Below the pieces are notes generated by a model. The model saw nothing but the letters and a program-made list of their open reading frames with translations. It did no database searches and was not told the DNA's origin. A stretch of DNA of 43,922 bases from a bacterium (GTDB taxonomy: Bacteria; Vulcanimicrobiota; Vulcanimicrobiia; Vulcanimicrobiales; Vulcanimicrobiaceae): assembly GCA_028869385.1 (NCBI GenBank), contig JAGWSR010000140.1:1-43922 (forward strand), in the 5' to 3' direction. This document shows positions 18,572 to 28,602 of the stretch, piece after piece; position 1 is the first letter of the stretch, and every line of letters begins with the position of its first letter. The position numbers and the translations under genes were made by a program.

Positions 18572-19084
18572 ATGACGACGCTCACGCACGCGCTTTCCGC
18601 AACGGATGCGAATGCCGGCACGCGCGAGATCTTGAGCTTTCGGCTTGGTGATGAAGAGTACGGCATCGACATTCTCAAGGTGCAAGAGATTCGCGGCTAC
18701 GGTACCGTTACCAAGATCGCGAACACGCCCGAGTTCATTAAGGGCGTTATCGATCTGCGCGGGACGATCGTGCCGATCGTCGATATGCGCCTGAAATTCG
18801 GCCTCGCGCGCGCCGAGTACGACCAATTTACCGTCACGATCATTCTCAACGTCGCCGAGCGCGTCGTCGGGATCGTCGTCGACGGCGTCTCCGACGTGGT
18901 CGCGCTCACGCCGGATAACGTCAAGCCGATTCCGACGCTCGGCACCCAAGTTGATGCGAACTATTTGGACGGGGTCGGAACGCTCGACGAGCGCATGATT
19001 CTCTTGATCGACATCGAGCGACTGATGACGAGCCGCGACATGCAACTGGTTGCCGCGGTAACGCACGCCGCTGTAGGAGGATAG
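18572..19084 (+). CDS. cheW: Chemotaxis coupling protein CheW, 170 aa
   Basis: Adaptor joining receptors to the CheA kinase. A single CheW SH3-like domain: ILSFRLGDEEYGIDILKVQEI, then GVIDLRGTIVPIVDMRLKFG (the receptor and kinase contact region), VGIVVDGVSDVVAL, and the C-terminal LDERMILLIDIERL. The roughly 20-residue N-terminal extension looks disordered. GGAGGA at 18557-18562 sets the start. The sequence is very close to the proteobacterial consensus. The receptor gene starts 9 bases after the stop. Confidence 0.96.
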   Translation: MTTLTHALSATDANAGTREILSFRLGDEEYGIDILKVQEIRGYGTVTKIANTPEFIKGVIDLRGTIVPIVDMRLKFGLARAEYDQFTVTIILNVAERVVGIVVDGVSDVVALTPDNVKPIPTLGTQVDANYLDGVGTLDERMILLIDIERLMTSRDMQLVAAVTHAAVGG

Positions 19085-19093
19085 ACACGAGTC

Positions 19094-21802
19094 ATGGATA
19101 TTCGCTGTTTGGTCGAGGCGGCGATCGCCGCCGTCGTTGCCGGCGTCGCCGTCGGCGCGTTCGTTCACATCCGCTCGCGCCGCATATATGCCGGAGCGAT
19201 CGATGCGCTCTACGACGCGCTCGCCGAGGTGATGCGCGCTCACATGGAGCGCGGCATGATCGAAGAGAAAATCGACGTCGCGCGTTTTAGCGGCGTGTAC
19301 GCGCGCATCGCCGACGCGATCAACCGCCACGTGCAGGCGCACATCGACGTGAAGATGCAGGTCGTCGACGTCGTAAGCCGCTACGCCCGCGGCGACTTTT
19401 CGGTGGATATGGAGCGCCTACCCGGCACCAAGGCGCGCATTAGCGCCGCGATCGACCAGGTCAAAGCGAGCTTCGAATCGGTTGCGGCCGAGGTCTCGGC
19501 GCTCGCGAACGCCGCCGCCAAGGGCGACTTCTCGGCGCGCGGCGACGCGGCGACGTATCAGAACAGCTTCCGTACCATGATGGAGAACCTGAACACGCTC
19601 ATGGAGACGGCCGACGTCGGCTTGCGCGACGTGCAGCGCATGCTCGGCGCCATCGCGAACGGCGACCTCACGCAGCGCATCCAGCGCGAGTATCCCGGCA
19701 TCTTCGGCGCGCTCAAGGAGCACGCCAACGAGACGATCGCGCTGCTCGAACGCTTCATGGCGGCGCAGGCGGAGATGTCGCGGCAGCACACCGAGCTCGG
19801 CATGATCGAGCAGAAGATCGATGCCGATCGCTTCCCGGGCGCATACCGGGAGATGGCGCAGTCCATCAACCATTTGGTGCAGTCGCACATCGACGTGAAG
19901 ATGCGCGTGGTGTCGATCGTCACGAGCTACTCCGAGGGCGACTTCACCGTGCAGATGGATCGCCTTCCGGGCACCAAGGCGCGCATCACCGAGGCGATCG
20001 ATCGCGTCAAGGCGAGCTTCGAAGCCGTCGCGAGCGACGTCTCGGGCCTCGCGGGCGCCGCCGGTCGCGGCGACTTCACGGCTCGCGCGGACGTCGAGCG
20101 CTACCAGAACAGTTTCCGGACGATGATGGAGCAACTCAACGCGCTGGTGGATACGGCCGACGTCGGTCTCACCGACGTGCTGCGCATGCTGCGCGCCATT
20201 TCGACCGGTGATCTGACGCAGCGCATCGAGGGCGAGTATCCGGGAACCTTCGGAACGCTCAAGGAGTACTCGAACGCCACCGTCGCGCTGCTCCAGCAAT
20301 TCATCGCGGCGCAGGGTGAGATGTCGCGTCAGCACATGGAGCTCGGCATGATCGAGTACCAGATGGACGCGAGCCGCTTCTCGGGCGCGTATCGCGACAT
20401 GGCGCAATCGGTCAACGATCTCGTGCAGTCGCACATCGCGGTGAAGATGCGCGTCGTCGACGTGGTGACGCAGTACGCGCTCGGCAACTTCGCGATCGAG
20501 ATGGATCGGCTGCCGGGAACCAAGGCGAAAATCACCGACGCCGTGGATAAGATCAAAGCGAGCTTCGAGTCGATCGCGGGCGAGGTCGTCGGCCTCGTGG
20601 ACGCTGCGGCGCGCGGCGACTTCTCGGCGCGCGGCGACGCCGGAGCCTATCAGTTCAGCTTCCGCGCGATGGTCGAAGGGCTCAACACGCTCATGGAGAC
20701 GGCGGACAAGGGCCTGAACGACGTGGCGCGGGTGCTCGCCGCACTCGCGAAGGGCGATCTCACCGAGGCGATCACCGCCGAGTATCTCGGAACGTTCGGC
20801 AAGCTCAAAGACGATTCGAACGCGACGGTCGCGAGCCTGAACGACGTGGTGGATCGTATCCGCTCGTCGGTCGAAGTGGTCAACACCGCGGCGCGCGAGA
20901 TCGCGGCCGGCAATTCGAATCTCTCGGCGCGCACCGAGCAGCAGGCCTCGAGCCTCGAAGAGACGGCGGCTTCGATGGAAGAGCTGCTCTCGACCGTCAA
21001 GCAGAACACCGATAACGCCCGCCAAGCCAACCAACTCGCGATCGGCGCGAGCGAGATCGCCGTGCGCGGAGGCGACGTCGTCTCGCAGGTCGTGACGACC
21101 ATGGGATCGATCAGCGACAGCGCGCGTAAGATCGGCGACATCATCGGTGTGATCGACGGGATCGCGTTCCAGACGAACATCCTCGCGCTCAACGCCGCGG
21201 TCGAGGCCGCGCGTGCGGGAGAACAGGGTCGCGGCTTCGCGGTCGTCGCGGGTGAGGTGCGCAACCTCGCGCAGCGCTCCGCCGCTGCGGCTAAGGAGAT
21301 CAAGGCGCTCATCAACGATTCGGTGGATCGCACCGAGAGCGGCAGCCGACTCGTGGATCAAGCGGGTCGCACGATGGACGAGATCGTGCAGGCGGTCAAG
21401 CGCGTCACCGATATCATGGCGGAGATCGCCGCGGCGTCGAAAGAGCAACTCGCCGGGATCGAGCAAGTGAACGACGCCGTCTCGCAGATGGACCAGGTCA
21501 CGCAGCAGAACGCGGCGCTGGTCGAAGAGGCTGCCGCAGCCGCGGGGTCGCTCGAGGAGCAGTCGGGTAATCTGGTCAACGCGGTCGCGGTCTTTCGGAT
21601 CGCACGCGCCTCGGCGCCCGCGCAACCGATCGTCGCCGCCGCTCCCGTGCAAAAGCCCGTGCTCGAACCCCGCAAACCGCTGCGCAGTAACGGTTCGGCC
21701 CGCGCGAAGAACGGCCGTTCGAACGGCCACGGGGCGACGGTGGTCGCGGCACCCAAGGTCGTTGCGGATCGCGAGGACGACGACGAGTGGAAGAGCTTCT
21801 AG
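19094..21802 (+). CDS. Methyl-accepting chemotaxis protein with triplicated poly-HAMP region and C-terminal tether, 902 aa
   Basis: Chemoreceptor with one N-terminal membrane segment (about residues 7-25) and no periplasmic sensor, so the rest is cytoplasmic. Residues 54-600 are three tandem copies of a 182-residue unit starting at GMIEEKID (54), GMIEQKID (236) and GMIEYQMD (418). Each unit holds three HAMP-like modules marked by GDF or GDL motifs, so about nine in a row. The kinase-control domain follows: methylation helix [18 protein letters not shown], hairpin tip [36 protein letters not shown] (691-726, interrupted here only by block counting), and returning helix. An Ala/Pro-rich flexible linker leads to the C-terminal pentapeptide EWKSF, a CheR/CheB docking sequence. 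The signal is probably internal or membrane-related, relayed through the HAMP chain. It overlaps cheR by 16 bases. Confidence 0.93.
19253..20890 (+). repeat. Three in-frame tandem repeats of 546 bp inside the receptor gene
   Basis: Units begin at 19253, 19799 and 20345 and share conserved anchors in the same order: GMIE, DVKMRVV-like, [40 protein letters not shown], and QAEMSRQH at the junctions. The exact 182-codon period in both intervals points to intragenic duplication followed by point divergence. Confidence 0.88.
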
Positions 21803-22611
21803 CGCGAGAGTTCGCGTTCGACGACTCCACGTTCGAGCGAGCGCGCAGTATGCTCTGCGCGCTCGCCGGCCTTCGCTTGGGCGAGAACAAGAGCGAACTC
21901 GTGTACAACCGGCTCGCGCGGCGGATGCGCCGATTGCGGGTACCGAACTTCGCCGCCTACTTTCGCATCGTCGAGAGCGACGCGGTCGAACAACGCGAGT
22001 TCGTCAACGCCCTCACGACTAACATTACCGCATTCTTTCGGGAGCCGCATCACATGGAGGCGATCGCCGCGCGCGCGCGCGCCTGGACGGAGAAGCATCC
22101 GATGCGTATCTGGAGCGCGGCGTGTTCGAGCGGCGAGGAGCCGTACAGCGTCGCGATGACGCTCTGCGACGTTGCCCGCACGCAGCGCTTCGCGTTCGAG
22201 ATCTTCGCCACCGACCTCGATAGCGACGTACTTTCGCGCGCGGCGCGCGGCACCTACGAGATCGAGCGAGCGGCGAAGGTGCCGCCGCAACTCCGCGAGC
22301 GCTACCTTCAACGCGGCGTCGGTTCGCGCCAGGGGCTCTGCCGGATTCGCCCCGAGGTGGCCGCGCACGTGCGCTTCCAACAATTCAACCTGCTCGATCG
22401 CGCGTGGCCGAGCCTCGGACCCTTCGACGTGATCCTGGTGCGCAACGTGCTGATCTACTTCGGCCGCGACGACCAGCGGCGCGTCGTCGAACGGATGCAC
22501 GGCGTGCTCGAACCCGACGGTCTGCTCTGCACGGGACATGCGGAATCGCTCTTCTACGCGAGCGATCTATACCGCATTCGCGGGCGCACGATGTACGCGC
22601 GAGCGGGCTGA
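21787..22611 (+). CDS. cheR: Chemoreceptor glutamate methyltransferase CheR, 274 aa
   Basis: SAM-dependent methyltransferase that methylates receptor glutamates for adaptation. N-terminal helical domain with NITAFFR (79-85), SAM-binding [13 protein letters not shown] (109-121), FEIFATDLD, and VRNVLIYF. The beta-subdomain segment [20 protein letters not shown] contains Gly177-x-Gly179 and matches the E. coli CheR region that grips the receptor C-terminal pentapeptide, consistent with the EWKSF tail on the adjacent receptor. The start overlaps the receptor gene by 16 bases, and cheD begins 5 bases after the stop, so expression is coordinated. Confidence 0.96.
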
Positions 22612-22615
22612 AGAG

Positions 22616-23224
22616 ATGGAGCACTACTTCGATCGCCGATTCGACTGCGACGGCCTCAAACTGCTGCCGGGCGAATTCGCGATCGCGACGGACGGCGAGA
22701 TGCTCGTAACCGTGCTCGGCTCGTGCGTCGCCGCGTGCATTTGGGATACCGAAAGCGGCGTGGGAGGCATGAATCACTTCATGCTGCCGCATTCGCAGTC
22801 CGGCGACGGCGGCGCGGCGATCTCGTATCTGTCGTACTCGGGCCGGTACGGCGTCAACGCGATGGAGATGTTGGTCAACGGCATCATTCGCCGCGGCGGC
22901 GATCGCACGCGCCTCGCTGCCAAGCTCTTCGGCGGCGCATCGGTGCTCGCGGCGCTCGACGCGCGTGAGATCGGCGAGGAGAACGCGCGCTTCGCGACCG
23001 CGTATCTCGAGACGGAGCGCATTCCGCTCGTCGCCTCGGACCTGCGCGGGCACGCGCCGCGCCGCGTGCACTTCTGGCCGACGAACGGCGATGCGCGCGT
23101 GCGCTATCTCGGTCACGAGAGCGCCGATGCCGGGGCGATTCAGGAGCACGAAGGTCGCTACGCACGCCGTCTGGCCGAGCGCCGCGAGTACGGCAGCGTC
23201 GATATCTTCGACATCATCGGATGA
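22616..23224 (+). CDS. cheD: Chemoreceptor glutamine deamidase CheD, 202 aa
   Basis: Deamidates receptor glutamines to glutamates, and in some bacteria is a partner of CheC. The catalytic Cys37 sits in [12 protein letters not shown] and His54 in GMNHFMLP, with downstream [23 protein letters not shown] and [10 protein letters not shown]-type strands as in the family. ATG 22616 gives the usual N-terminus; a longer frame overlaps cheR in a meaningless frame. The stop overlaps the cheB ATG (ATGA). No CheC is encoded here. Confidence 0.95.
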
Positions 23225-24252
23225 TTCGCGTCGTCGTCGTCGATGACTCAGCCCTGATTCGCTCGCTGTTGCGCGAGATGATCGACGCACAGCCCGATAT
23301 GCGCGTGGTCGGCGCGGCGGCCGATCCCTACGCCGCGCGCGAGATCATCCGCGCGGAGAACCCCGACGTGGTGACGCTCGACGTCGAGATGCCGCGCATG
23401 AACGGCTTGGACTTTCTCGAGCGGATCATGCGCCTTCGCCCGATGCCCGTGCTGATGATCTCTTCACTCACGCAGCGTAATGCCGAAGCGACGCTGCGCG
23501 CGCTCGAGTTGGGTGCGGTGGACTTCGTCGCCAAGCCGACGGTCGGTATCGCCGACGGCGTCCGGGAGCTGGAGCGTGAGATCGTCGAGAAGATCCGCAT
23601 CGCGGCGGATGCCCGTCCGCGTCAGCTCCACGCGTCGCCGCCGGCGCGCCGCGTCGCGTTCGAGTCGACGGAGAAGATCCTGGCGATCGGTGCGAGCACC
23701 GGCGGAACCGAGGCGATCGCCGCGCTGCTCGAGGCGTTTCCGCCGATGGCTCCCGCGACCGTGATCGCGCAGCATATGCCGCCGGTCTTCACGACCGGAT
23801 TCGCTCGGCGGCTCGACGCGCGTTGCCGCATCAACGTCGCGGAAGCACGCGATGGCGAACGCTTGCTGCCGGGCCACGCCTACGTCGCCCCCGGCGATTT
23901 TCACGTGCGCGTGGTGCGCCGCGGCGCCGACTACGTCGCGTCGGTCACGCAGGACGAGCCGGTCAATCGGCACCGCCCGTCGGTGGACGTGCTCTTCGCG
24001 TCGGTCGCGGCGAGCGCCGGTGGGAACGCGCTCGGGGTGATCTTGACGGGGATGGGAGCGGACGGCGCGGCGGGCCTGCGTGCGATGCGCGACGCGGGCG
24101 CCTTCACGGTCGCGCAAGATGAAGCGAGTTGCGTGATTTTCGGCATGCCGAAGGCGGCGATCGCGCTCGGCGCGGCCTGCGAGATCGTGCCGCTCGAGCG
24201 GATCGTTACGACGCTTTCGGAACGGCTTCGTGTCCGAACGAACCGGATGTGA
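23221..24252 (+). CDS. cheB: Chemotaxis response regulator and methylesterase/deamidase CheB, 343 aa
   Basis: Receiver domain (acidic pair Asp8-Asp9, phospho-acceptor Asp54 in TLDVEMP, Lys in VAKPT) joined by a linker to the methylesterase domain with the catalytic Ser in [10 protein letters not shown], His in AQHMPPVF and Asp in [11 protein letters not shown]. Phosphorylated by CheA, it removes methyl groups that CheR adds. ATGA overlap with cheD. The last 47 bases overlap the 3' end of the convergent cheA, so both strands are coding there. Confidence 0.97.
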
Positions 24253-26161
24253 GGATCGCGTTGACGTCGAGAATCAGCGCGACGCGGCCGTTGCCGAGCA
24301 CCGTCGCGCCCGAGTAACCCTCGACGCGGCGGAAGTTCGCCTCGAGGCTCTTGATGACGACCTGATGCTGTCCCTCGATCGCGTCGACCACGAGGCCGCC
24401 GGCGAGCCGATCGTGCTCGACGACGAGCGCCACGTGCTCTCCGTCGGACGTGCGCGCGTCGTCGCTCATGAAGATCAGCGGTAACGTGGTGTCGCGGTAG
24501 GCGATGAAGGGACGATCCGCGGCCACGTGCACGTCGCTCGCGGAGAGCACGATGGATTCGCGCACCGATGCGATCGGGAGAATCATCGTCTCGTCACCGA
24601 CGCGCACGCTCAAGCCGTCGAGGATCGCGAGCGTGAGCGGCAGACGTAGCCGAATTGTGGTGCCCGCGCCCGCGGCGCTCTCGACGTCCACGTGGCCGCC
24701 GATCGCCGCGAGGTTGCGCCGTACCACGTCCATGCCGACGCCGCGCCCGGAGAGTTCGGTGACGCTCGCGGCGGTCGAGAAGCCGGGGAGAAAGATGCAG
24801 CCGAAGATCTCGTCGTCGCTCGGATCGTCGGAGAGCGCGATGCCGGCGTCGCGCGCGCGCGCCATCACGCGGTCGCGGTCGATGCCGCGCCCGTCGTCGG
24901 CGATCTCGATGTAGACGTTTCCGCTGCGCTCGTAGGCGCGCAGCGCGATCGTTCCGGCAGCGGGCTTTCCCGCCGCGATGCGTTCGTCGGGAGATTCGAT
25001 GCCGTGATCGATGGCGTTGCGCACGAGGTGTGTCAGCGGGTCGATCACCGACTCGAGCAAACCCTTGTCGAGTTCGGTATCGTCGCCGCCCGTCTGCAGC
25101 GTGACGCTCTTGCCAAGATCGCGGGCGGTATCGCGCACGAGGCGATGAAAGCGTGCGAAGATCGAGCCGATGGGCAGCATCCGCACGCCCATCACCGCTT
25201 CGCGCACGTCGCGCGTGTAGCGCGAGAGGCGCTCCGCCGCGCTCAAGAGTTCTTGGTGACGTACTTCGTCGAGTTCGGCGAGCGAGGATTGGAGCGCGGC
25301 CTGCGCGATCAACATCTCGCCGACCAAGTCGATCAACTGGTCGACTTTCTTCACATCGACGCGAATGGACGAACCTTCGGCATTTTCGCCGCGCGCGCGT
25401 GCCGTCGGCGCGGTACTGCGGTGCTCGGTCGGCGGCGCAGTCGTCGCCGCCGTCTCGTCGTCGTCGAAAAAGCCGAACGCCGATGCGTCGAGTGGCTTCG
25501 GCTCGGGTGCGGCCTCGGCCGCTTCTTCGACGTCCACGCGATCGTGATCGTCGGTCGCGAAGAGCAGGATCTCGCGCAGCCGTTCGGCGGCGTGCGCCCC
25601 CACGACGCTCGCGCGCCAGGTCTCTCCGTCGTCGGCGATCTCCTCGACGCGCGCGATCGCGCCGAGCGCGTCGCGGATGCTCGCGAGCGTGGCGGCTCGT
25701 TCGTGATCGCGCCGAGCCGTTCGCACGCGCACGATGAGGCGCCGTTCGCGAACGGGAGCGCGAGCGTTCGCACCGGTGCGCGTCGCCTCGAGGCGCACGC
25801 GCAGGTGGTGGAGCGCATCGGCATTCGCCGGTTCGTGGGAGCGATACGCCGCGAGCAGCGCGCGCAACTCGTCGTGCGCCTCGAGGATCGCGGCGATCAC
25901 ATCGGAGGTCGGCTCGATCGCCCCGTTACGCAGTGCGTCGAGCAGCGCTTCGAGCGCGTGCGTCGCTTCGGCCATCTCGGCGAAGCCGAAGATGCCGCTC
26001 GCGCCCTTGATCGAGTGCGCGGCGCGAAAGAGCTCGTCGTAGGTCTCGGCATCGGCGTGCGGGTCCGCGTCGAGGGCGAGGGCGATGCGTTCGATGGTCG
26101 CGAGATGCTCGGCGACTTCGTCGAAGAAGCTCTCGTGAAAGCGCGAGATGTCGATCGGCAT
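24206..26161 (-). CDS. cheA: Chemotaxis histidine kinase CheA, 651 aa
   Basis: Domain order: P1 Hpt with the phospho-acceptor His49 ([12 protein letters not shown]), a P2-like regulator-binding segment (about 140-215), an Ala/Pro/acidic linker, P3 dimerisation helices ([18 protein letters not shown]), P4 ATPase with the N box ([12 protein letters not shown]), G1 (IADDGRGID) and G2 ([10 protein letters not shown]), and a P5 CheW-like domain ending in [12 protein letters not shown]. All catalytic boxes are present. The ATG at 26161 overlaps the cheY stop by one base (TGATG). A longer frame adds 21 unconserved residues. It belongs to the mcp2-cheY-cheA arm that converges on cheB. Confidence 0.97.
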
Positions 26162-26523
26162 CAGCCGATCAGCCGTTGAATGACCGCGAGCAGCGTATCG
26201 GGGTCGAAGGGCTTTACCATCCATCCGGTCGCGCGCACCGCTTTTCCGCGGGCTTTCATCTCGTCGCTCGCTTCGGTCGTCAGCATGATGATCGGCGTCG
26301 CGGAGAAGCGCGGATCGTTGCGCAGCTGGCCGATCAAGCCGAAGCCGTCGAGGCGCGGCATGTTCTGATCGGTGAGCACCATGTCGAAGCTGCGTCCTTG
26401 GGCCAGTTCGAGCGCTTCGGCGCCGTCCTTCGCTTCGATGACGTCGTACCCGGCGGAGCGCACCGTGTACGAGACCATCTGGCGAACGGAGGGAGAATCA
26501 TCAACGGTGAGGATCGTCTTCAT
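26161..26523 (-). CDS. cheY: Single-domain response regulator CheY, 120 aa
   Basis: Receiver-only protein with the acidic pair Asp8-Asp9 (TVDDSPSVRQMV), phospho-acceptor Asp52 (LTDQNMPRLDG), the switch Thr (IIMLTTEAS) and Lys (MVKPFDPDTL). It should accept phosphate from CheA. Its target is unknown because no motor genes are in the window. It lies 20 bases downstream of the second receptor gene and overlaps cheA by one base. Confidence 0.96.
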   Translation of the reverse strand: MKTILTVDDSPSVRQMVSYTVRSAGYDVIEAKDGAEALELAQGRSFDMVLTDQNMPRLDGFGLIGQLRNDPRFSATPIIMLTTEASDEMKARGKAVRATGWMVKPFDPDTLLAVIQRLIG

Positions 26524-26543: not shown

Positions 26544-27749
26544 TCAACTGGCGAAGAGCTCGATGCTGCCCGCGAGCATCGATTGCTGGTGAACGGGCGC
26601 GTCGCGTCGTAGCGGGGTCGGAAGGGCGGGGGTGCCGTCGTCGAGCAGCCCGCGCAGATGCGTCGCGCGTTGTTCGAGGTGCGCGATGAGTTGGGTGGAG
26701 AGATCGTGGAATTGCAGCGAGGTGACCGCCTCGCTGACGTGCGCGTGCGTCGCCGCGGAGAGCCGTTCGGTCTCGGCTAAGACGTGGCGCGTATCGCGAT
26801 CCACCGCGCGGATCTCGCTCGAGAGGCGATCCCACGAAGCACGTGCTTCGGAGGCAAAGGACGAGTCGCGGTCGGTCAGTTGGCGAACGCGGCGTTTGGC
26901 TTCGGTGAGTTCCGCGCCGAGCGCCTGAACGCGGCGCCGCGTGTCGAGGCTGAAATCGTTCGAGCGCGCGCTGAGTTTTCGCACCTCGGCGGCAACGACC
27001 GCGAAGCCGCGTCCGACATCGCCCGCGCGCGCGGCTTCGATCGTGGCGTTGAGCGCAAGGAGATTCGTCTGCTCGGCGATGTGTTCGACCTCGTCGAAGG
27101 CGCCCAAGATCGACTCGATGTGCCGCGCGACGTCGTCGATCGTGGCGGCGACGGCGAGCGCGACCTCGGACGAATCGCTCGCGTGCTCGACCAACTGCGC
27201 GAACACGTTCGAGACTTCGTGGAGAAAGTGCTCGAGATGTCGTTCGCGTCCACCGCCCGCGGCGTCGTCGAGGAGCGCGCGCTGCTCGCGCATGCAGCGA
27301 TCGAGGCTGGTGAAGCTCTTGACGAGGTGCCCGATCGCGTCGTCCACGAGCGCGCGCAGGCGCGCGAGCTCGCCGCCCAGTTCGCCGAGCGATCCGTTCC
27401 CGTCTTCGCGCAGGCCGCACAGGCGCGTGCGGCTCGCCGCGGCATCGGATTCGGCGGCGTCGGCGCGACGCGCGAGGTCCTCGCAGCGCGCCTCCAACTC
27501 GGCGATGCGCTCAACGTGCGCCGTCTGCGCGGGCAGATAGCGGGCGAGCTCGGCGCGGCCGTGCTCGATGGCGGCGCGGAGGTCGGACTCCGCATGCCTC
27601 GCCGCCGCGAGCGCGCGGTCCCGTTCGCTCTCCAGGCGCGAGCACGTCGCTTCGAGTGCGAGACGGCGAGAGCGGGCGCGCACGAGAGACGCCGCAACGA
27701 TGCCGAAAGCGCACAAAAGAATCGAACTCGCGATGAGGTAGGCAACCAC
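26544..27749 (-). CDS. Receptor-like MCP-domain protein with CheZ-like tail motif, 401 aa
   Basis: One N-terminal membrane segment ([22 protein letters not shown]), a long coiled coil with no recognised sensor domain, then the MCP signalling hairpin [38 protein letters not shown] that contacts CheA/CheW. The tail contains [17 protein letters not shown], with Asp349 and Gln353 placed as in the CheZ phosphatase motif (QDLTGQ type). This could be a receptor, a CheY-P phosphatase, or both. There is no C-terminal pentapeptide. GTG start at 27749 with GTAGGGG just upstream. It is first in the mcp2-cheY-cheA arm. Confidence 0.85.
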
Positions 27750-27759
27750 GCCCCTACCC

Positions 27760-27795
27760 TAGCGGCCGCGGGTAACGCGCAGGTAACGGCCGCTA
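27760..27795 (-). repeat. 9-bp inverted repeat at the nat stop codon
   Basis: TAGCGGCCG (27760-27768) pairs with CGGCCGCTA (27787-27795), with an 18-base spacer holding two GGTAAC copies. It includes the nat stop codon and lies in the 43-bp gap before the receptor-like gene. It may terminate the upstream operon partly or be an operator for mcp2; there is no T-run. Confidence 0.4.
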
Positions 27796-28602
27796 GAAGC
27801 CGCGCACGCGGTGCCGTACCCACGCGCGATGGCGTTCGGCGACGCGCTCCCAGAGTGCGTCCGCGTCGTCGGGAGCGAGCGCGAAGCGCGCGCGCAGCAT
27901 CTCGGCGAGCTCGGCGGCCGACTGCGCGATCGTCTCGGTCACCTCGTGCGGCGTGAGCGTGGTGAGCACGGCTCCGCGCAGCGAGACGATGCCTTCGTCG
28001 GTGAAGCGATGGCAGACGAGGTTCTGCACGAAGGGCGACTCCGGATCGCGCTGCAGCCACGCGCTCTTGGCGGCGAACGCACCGATCGATCGCGGCGTTT
28101 CGGTGAAGTCGTAGGTATCGGCCGCGGTCGCATGATTGTGAAAGCGCCAGCCGCTTTCGATTCGCTCCAGGCGAAAGGTGAAGCGCCCGTCGCCCGCGCT
28201 CCCGGGCGCGAGCGCTAACGGCGTGAGGAAGCCGTTGCCGAAGCCGACGTCGGCGAGCATCGGACGCTCGAGCGCGACGAGCAGCGCGAGGTGGTTGAAG
28301 GCGTTCTCGGGCCGCTCGCGCGCGCCGACGCCCGCGGCGACGAAGGTGACCTCGAATCCGATCTCGCGCAGCGCCCACGCGAAGAGCGCGTTCATTTCAT
28401 AACACCAGCCGCCGCGTCCGCCCTCGACGATCTTCGCATAGGCGTCGGCGACGTCGAGCGTGACGCGCCGACCGAACTGGACGTCGAGATTCTCATAGGG
28501 GATCGCAAGGAGATGCGCGCGGTGGAGCTAGTGCAGCGTCGCGCGCGAGACGTCGAGCGGGCCGCCGTAGGCGATGCGCCGCAGGTAGCGATGCAGGTTC
28601 AA
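27793..28602 (-). pseudogene. nat: Arylamine N-acetyltransferase interrupted by an in-frame amber codon
   Basis: Read from TTG 28602, codons 1-24 give an N-terminus typical of NAT (NLHRYLRRIAYGGPLDV), codon 25 is TAG (28528-28530), and the same frame continues with LHRAHLLAIPYENLDV and RGGWCYEMN (catalytic Cys), FNHLALLV (His) and LADVGFG (Asp), to a total of 269 codons, the normal NAT length. The frame is never lost and the triad is intact, so only one nonsense codon spoils it. No ATG, GTG or TTG lies between the stop and the catalytic Cys; the first ATG (28395) is past it. NAT transfers acetyl from acetyl-CoA to aromatic amines. The TTGA overlap with the ridA stop supports this start. It could be a recent mutation or a sequence error. 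Confidence 0.85.

Follow-up and report, generated by a model that had tools for sequence, protein, structure and literature searches.

The chemotaxis locus

A cluster of chemotaxis genes was identified in the window (the whole stretch of DNA that was analysed, 43,922 nucleotides in length), with the following genes.

18626..19033, plus strand: cheW (CheW match, E 3.2e-39)
19094..21802, plus strand: HAMP-array MCP of 902 amino acids ending in EWKSF, an Aer2-like partner receptor (Pfam, C-terminus)
21787..22611, plus strand: cheR (Pfam)
22538..23224, plus strand: cheD, with a C-terminal GSVDIF at 23192-23209 that resembles the GSIELF of the receptor (Pfam)
23221..24252, plus strand: cheB (Pfam)
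24206..26161, minus strand: cheA (Hpt, H-kinase_dim, HATPase_c and CheW domains)
26161..26523, minus strand: cheY, a single receiver domain and the presumed substrate (Response_reg, E 1.1e-26)
26544..27749, minus strand: gene for an McpA-like receptor with a CheZ-like module, 401 amino acids (ORF and translation, MCPsignal match, homologues, synteny)

The minus-strand genes for the receptor, CheY and CheA converge on the plus-strand genes cheW, MCP, cheR, cheD and cheB. The stop codon of the receptor gene is followed after 20 bp by cheY, the stop codon of which overlaps the start of cheA at 26161 (junction TGATG), bearing out the operon of these three genes that had been proposed in a preliminary description of the window. 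The mechanical ORF of cheA reaches 26224. At their 3' ends, the ORFs of cheA and cheB converge with an overlap of 47 bp (24206-24252). The active-site residues D8, D9, D52, T82 and K104 could be read from the translation of cheY. A perfect 10-bp inverted repeat (CTAGCGGCCG/CGGCCGCTAG) was found at 27759-27796, between the start of the receptor gene and an arylamine N-acetyltransferase-like ORF whose stop codon falls in one arm of the repeat; this could be a terminator or a regulatory site.

The protein shares with McpA-like receptors of the F7 class an MCP domain and a cluster containing an Aer2-like tethered receptor, cheR, cheD, cheB, cheY and cheA. By these features the gene is classified as that of an McpA-like chemoreceptor of an F7-type cluster, the F7 class being assigned by synteny. 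The EWKSF of the 902-amino-acid MCP is a pentapeptide of the CheR-tether type, while the C-terminal GSIELF of the receptor deviates from the CheR pentapeptide x-[HFYW]-x2-[HFYW] (motif definition in PMC7184735). Within the phylum Candidatus Eremiobacterota, few genomes carry this type of receptor (3 of 149). A relative of the same family possesses the same convergent layout, with a receptor that is 33% identical and an MCP ending in DWKTF. The two closest relatives of the CheA within the phylum (E 1.1e-147 and 2.9e-113, the next being 1.2e-98) belong to the other two genomes that carry the receptor, and therefore receptor and CheA go together.

The absence of cheZ, cheC and cheX noted earlier for the window was found to extend to the whole genome of 3.08 Mb, in which the receptor gene is the only place with a match to the CheZ family PF04344. 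Profile searches of the whole genome gave no CheX above the cut-off and zero matches to CheC, and neither CheC nor CheX of Pfam matched the receptor protein; FliM is present in the same genome. The genome thus has no known CheY-P phosphatase family other than the candidate module of the receptor. Another CheA with CheW domains, distinct from that of the window, is also encoded (G000:C57:51-1847); for this one, too, the genome yielded no CheY-P phosphatase.

Domain content of the receptor

The following features were assigned to the receptor.

27675..27749, minus strand: hydrophobic N-terminal segment, residues 1-25 (sequence reading)
27282..27380, minus strand: arm 1 of the CheZ-like hairpin, residues 124-156, ahead of the MCP domain (homology to helix 1 of the short forms described below)
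26718..27188, minus strand: MCP signalling hairpin, residues 188-344, nested between both arms (Pfam MCPsignal match)
26637..26786, minus strand: arm 2, the putative active-site helix, residues 322-371 (Pfam CheZ match, CheZ profile alignment, AF2 helix)
26691..26717, minus strand: LQFHDLSTQ, residues 345-353, with D349 and Q353 (translation; homologue columns)
26553..26570, minus strand: C-terminal peptide GSIELF, residues 394-399, then AS (conserved G, L and F; peptide common to CheD)

Residues 1-25 probably form a single membrane anchor. Conserved positions of arm 1 are L128, L142, F146, L149 and Q156, and the MCP domain was matched by MCPsignal (PF00015) at residues 188-344 (E 2.5e-26, Pfam). 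Translation of 26544-27749 confirmed the LQFHDLSTQ, with D349 and Q353, that had been reported in the tail of this MCP-domain protein. The range given for it, 26544-26700, takes in the codon of Q353 (26691-26693) but ends just short of that of D349 (26703-26705). The pattern DxxxQ occurs once in the receptor and eight times in the neighbouring 902-amino-acid MCP, and it therefore needs conservation to carry meaning; at these counts the bare pattern is at chance level and was dropped as evidence. Judged by the homologue columns given below, the extended pattern and its conservation go far beyond chance.

Homologues of the receptor tail

Searching with a profile of the tail only identified 15 loci in named genomes, mostly of Proteobacteria, and two architectures, termed here the long and short forms. 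Long forms possess the MCP domain and lie in clusters that match the F7 class by gene order. Among them, the Shewanella locus (L033; receptor, REC-SpoIIE protein, cheY, cheA) corresponds to SO_2117 and the Vibrio locus (L013; MCP, cheR, cheD, cheB, receptor) to VCA1088, both of which are McpA-like receptors (PMC7184735, PMC9855816). Short forms, found in Burkholderiales, are ORFs of 127-191 amino acids with an alignable core of approximately 150 amino acids, situated directly upstream of cheY-cheA. These have no receptor domain and consist of a predicted helical hairpin and the C-terminal peptide, with BLAST aligning them to the tail only. No Pfam match above the cut-off and no NCBIfam match was obtained for the short forms, and none was found in plasmids with tblastn.

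Matches to the tail family were present in 101 of 369 genomes of the class Gammaproteobacteria. Sixty of the matching regions were read for gene context, which added two further groups, one of MCPs containing LQFQDRVSQ and one of standalone proteins containing QFYD...Q. The latter (or close variants; L105-L111, L113-L116, L118) have 154-282 amino acids and ends of the GxIELF type, in most cases neighbour cheR-cheD-cheB and a tethered MCP, and seem to be a second group of CheZ-like standalone proteins. MCPs with LQFQDRVSQIL and a C-terminal xTFF (L139-L148, L150-L152, L156) lie directly upstream of cheY, with cheA following soon after; by gene order these are perhaps VC1394-like receptors of F9 systems. 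Two Ectothiorhodospira MCPs (L053, L054) with a QYQDVEGQ tail and an IELF end were matched by the CheZ profile (E 5e-4) and not by the tail profile, and on this basis are placed as a further diverged group.

Among 109 distinct tails, D349 was conserved in 109, Q353 in 108 (the remaining tail having R), Q346 in 109 and F347 in 106. In the C-terminal peptide, F was found in 79 of 79 sequences, and G and L in 77 of 79 each. The module varies least at these positions. The tails were chosen by profile score and not by motif, although the profile was seeded by 12 sequences sharing the motif, which is thus somewhat favoured. Lack of conservation of the motif among orthologues had been named beforehand as a finding that would refute a phosphatase role, and the motif was found to be retained.

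Gene adjacency was scored as a single-domain cheY within 130 bp downstream on the same strand. By this measure, cheY is the next gene for 11 of 14 short forms, 14 of 19 LQFQDRVSQ-type MCPs, 12 of 57 McpA-type receptors (some of these loci being short) and none of 12 QFYD proteins, compared to 1 of 20 other MCPs and 18 of 614 other ORFs. Proteobacteria with members of the family encode a true CheZ at another site of their genomes as well.

Relation of the module to CheZ

The messenger CheY is switched off by the enzyme CheZ, whose catalytic residues in E. coli are D143 and Q147. The second-best Pfam match of the receptor is to CheZ (PF04344), aligning residues 309-358 to profile positions 89-138 with E 0.0024; its score of 18.2 bits lies below the gathering cut-off of 30.7, which leaves the protein outside the CheZ family. 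A sub-threshold match to the CheZ model PRK11166 was found with NCBIfam. Among 49 members examined, PF04344 was also the Pfam family with the largest number of matches (8 members, best E 4.6e-5, all below the cut-off), compared to 1 of 14 ordinary MCP tails. When 2530 ORFs were searched locally with a 12-sequence tail profile, the hits ranking directly below the family members were true CheZ proteins, with E values from 1.5e-4 to 7.5e-3; all unrelated proteins scored worse than E 0.01.

Alignment with hhalign against a 12-sequence CheZ alignment gave P 3.8e-4 for McpA tails and 2.8e-5 for LQFQDRVSQ tails, with D and Q in register. The reversed controls gave 0.05-0.5 and the MCP domain 0.019. 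Short forms alone reached P 0.051 and QFYD forms 0.7. For the combined motif window, P was 1.2e-5 with D and Q again in register, a value that is flattered as the window is anchored on the motif. The gapless hydrophobic pattern around the motif agreed best with that of CheZ at shift 0 (r 0.48). A PDB sequence search with the tail and short-form profiles did not return CheZ, giving spurious designed propellers and coiled coils. CheZ proteins conserve AXXFQ beside DXXXQ (PMC7750401); the family keeps the F, with the A position being mostly S or A. Together, these comparisons make remote homology of the module to CheZ likely but do not prove it, and the protein is best classified as an McpA-like receptor with a CheZ-like module and not as a member of CheZ.

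Nested hairpin architecture

Helix 1 of the short forms was found to be homologous to the segment of the long forms before the MCP domain (hhalign P 1.8e-7, against 0.11 for the reversed control). Helix 2 and the C-terminus are homologous to the long-form tail (P about 4e-22). In the short form, the D of the motif lies 36 residues beyond the conserved F of helix 1, whereas nearly all long forms have a spacing of 203-220. In the window protein it is 203 residues (F146 to D349), an excess of 167 residues or approximately 24 heptads. Homology of both arms, together with this difference in spacing, places the MCP hairpin where the CheZ-like hairpin turns. At the level of sequence, the MCP hairpin is thus nested inside a second helical hairpin that carries the near-invariant QFxDxxxQ on its return helix, which is followed by a variable linker and the conserved C-terminal peptide. 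The preliminary description was correct in locating a CheZ-like motif in the tail, but the tail is half of the module, which also takes in the C-terminal peptide and the helix ahead of the MCP domain. Regarding the order of origin, deletion of the MCP tip from an McpA ancestor would be as likely as insertion.

An AF2 model of the short form consists of a hairpin (17-59/69-112), a linker and a small C-terminal helix (136-141), a predicted layout that fits that of E. coli CheZ (PMC7750401). Arm 2 was predicted to be helical in a model of residues 170-371 of the window protein, which is a weak model (pLDDT 68, pTM 0.31, eight sequences, monomer). Foldseek and VIA-align searches with these models returned MCPs for the long model and many unrelated helical hairpins for the short one; CheZ was absent from the matches, and such fold searches do not separate one helical hairpin from another.

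The GxVELF-like C-terminal pattern was found in 90 of 121 ORFs of the tail family and 28 of 34 CheD proteins, and in 0 of 2192 others (loci including L013-L153). As it is common to CheD and the tail family, the peptide probably docks a partner common to both. One candidate partner is CheY, by likeness to the C-terminus of CheZ, and another is CheR, as suggested for Mlp44 (PMC11940527).

Proposed function

Conservation of the motif, occurrence of the module as a standalone protein beside cheY, adjacency of tail genes to cheY well above that of other genes, CheZ being the next match of the tail profile and a genome with no other known CheY-P phosphatase family together suggest that the McpA-like receptor is also a CheZ-like CheY-P phosphatase, which supports as a hypothesis the double role proposed in the preliminary description. 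We consider this to be probable, with considerable room for doubt. Weighing against it are the sub-threshold CheZ matches, the PDB searches that did not return CheZ, the differences from CheZ at positions -3 and +3, the poor alignment of the short and QFYD forms with CheZ, a C-terminal peptide that is common to CheD and so may have a partner other than CheY, the published links of McpA-like receptors to the F6 array and to CheA3, and the true CheZ of the proteobacterial carriers. The receptor would dimerise to form one uninterrupted four-helix bundle. Its CheA/CheW-binding tip would lie at one end, and the CheZ-like site approximately 110 residues from there in the direction of the membrane. 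CheY-P would dock on the return helix, possibly held by the C-terminal peptide. D349 would then pair with the lysine in the active site of CheY (K104), as D143 does in E. coli CheZ, and Q353 would orient the water attacking the phosphoryl group, as Q147 does. The receptor would supply its own signal terminator to a pathway that has no CheZ; that termination might be tuned by the state of the receptor is the most speculative step.

Alternatively, the module could be a non-catalytic scaffold derived from a CheZ-like hairpin, which binds or sequesters CheY-P and so brings or holds it at the array. Adjacency to cheY, the conserved residues and retention of the module without an MCP domain would all be accounted for, yet docking alone would not need the equivalents of the catalytic D (109 of 109) and Q (108 of 109) to be the least variable residues of the helix, and we regard this reading as unlikely. 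Equally unlikely is that the tail is a dock for adaptation enzymes, with xVxLF as a variant of the CheR/CheB pentapeptide and the helix residues being structural or sites of methylation or deamidation. V. cholerae Mlp44 (VCA1088) does end in E-V-E-x-F and has been grouped with the substrates of CheR3 (PMC11940527), cheR, cheB and cheD are in the cluster, and CheD has the same peptide. Against such a dock, valine at position 2 blocks binding to the four P. aeruginosa CheR proteins, according to work as cited in PMC7184735, and standalone proteins that have no receptor domain retain both helix and peptide. Furthermore, methylation sites vary between Q and E, while the column of Q353 contains 108 Q, one R and no E among the 109 tails; a methylation or deamidation site at this position was rejected on that ground. 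Least probable is that QFxDxxxQ is a convergent or structural packing or register motif of the coiled coil of 24-heptad receptors that resembles CheZ by chance, since, for all the weak matches that coiled-coil profiles return, the sub-threshold CheZ matches and the inability of fold searches to separate helical hairpins, CheZ proteins were the only non-members at E 0.01 or better among the 2530 ORFs, reversed and MCP controls gave no match and the module is found outside receptors, beside cheY.

Were the McpA-like receptor a CheY-P phosphatase, removal of CheY-P in F7 clusters that lack cheZ would be explained, as would the role of the conserved McpA C-terminus, published as "important yet unclear" (PMC7184735), and a receptor would both start and end its own signal. 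In the open literature searched, no phosphatase or CheZ-like module was reported for McpA-like receptors, and a search for LQFED/LQFQD gave nothing on chemotaxis. More tentatively, and with the balance leaning somewhat against it, a superfamily of CheZ-like CheY-P phosphatases may serve the classes without CheZ (McpA-type F7, LQFQDRVSQ-type, standalone LQFQD and QFYD), in whose receptor versions one coiled coil would both control CheA and, according to its signalling state, dephosphorylate CheY-P, and the peptide common to CheD would link adaptation and termination. The occurrence of a CheZ-like module in so wide a family offers a candidate route of signal ending for several chemosensory systems that lack CheZ.

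Comparison with known systems

The McpA-like F7 receptors of P. aeruginosa (CttP/McpA/PA0180), V. cholerae (VCA1088/Mlp44) and S. oneidensis (SO_2117) share with the window protein the MCP domain, a probable N-terminal hydrophobic anchor, a conserved C-terminus of the xVxLF type and the same cluster genes (Aer2-like receptor, cheR, cheD, cheB, cheY, cheA). The window receptor differs in its host, a member of Candidatus Eremiobacterota, and in the convergent layout of its operon. F7 clusters of stages 1 and 2, which are ancestors of the E. coli chemotaxis system, possess cheY and lack cheZ (PMC7184735), and VCA1088 has been classed among the 24H receptors (PMC7534058). In P. aeruginosa and S. 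oneidensis, the McpA-like receptors are found clustered with the F6 array; overproduction of S. oneidensis McpA affects swimming through CheA3 (PMC9855816, PMC7184735). F7 arrays have been published to form without McpA-like receptors. Location at the F6 array and F7 arrays that are independent of McpA are compatible with a phosphatase role, because a phosphatase need not organise the array.

CheZ (E. coli, PF04344) resembles the module, as predicted, in its DxxxQ, which follows an F on one helix of a hairpin, its linker, its C-terminal peptide and its gene beside cheY. The module differs in being interrupted by an MCP domain, in having LQFxD in place of AQDF[QH]D (Q in place of D at position -3, and S, R or T in place of G at +3) and in ending in GxVELF rather than DDLLxSLGF. 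The phosphatases CheC, CheX and FliY would share the same presumed task, dephosphorylation of CheY-P, but their fold and motif are unrelated to those of the module. Sensor kinases with HisKA_3 (NarX type) carry an (H)DxxxQ phosphatase motif on a helix. A phosphoacceptor H like theirs was rejected for the module, as E, Q and Y predominate at position -1, where T and P also occur. The helical DxxxQ is thus alike in the two, whereas the module protein has no kinase domains and does not conserve an H before the D.
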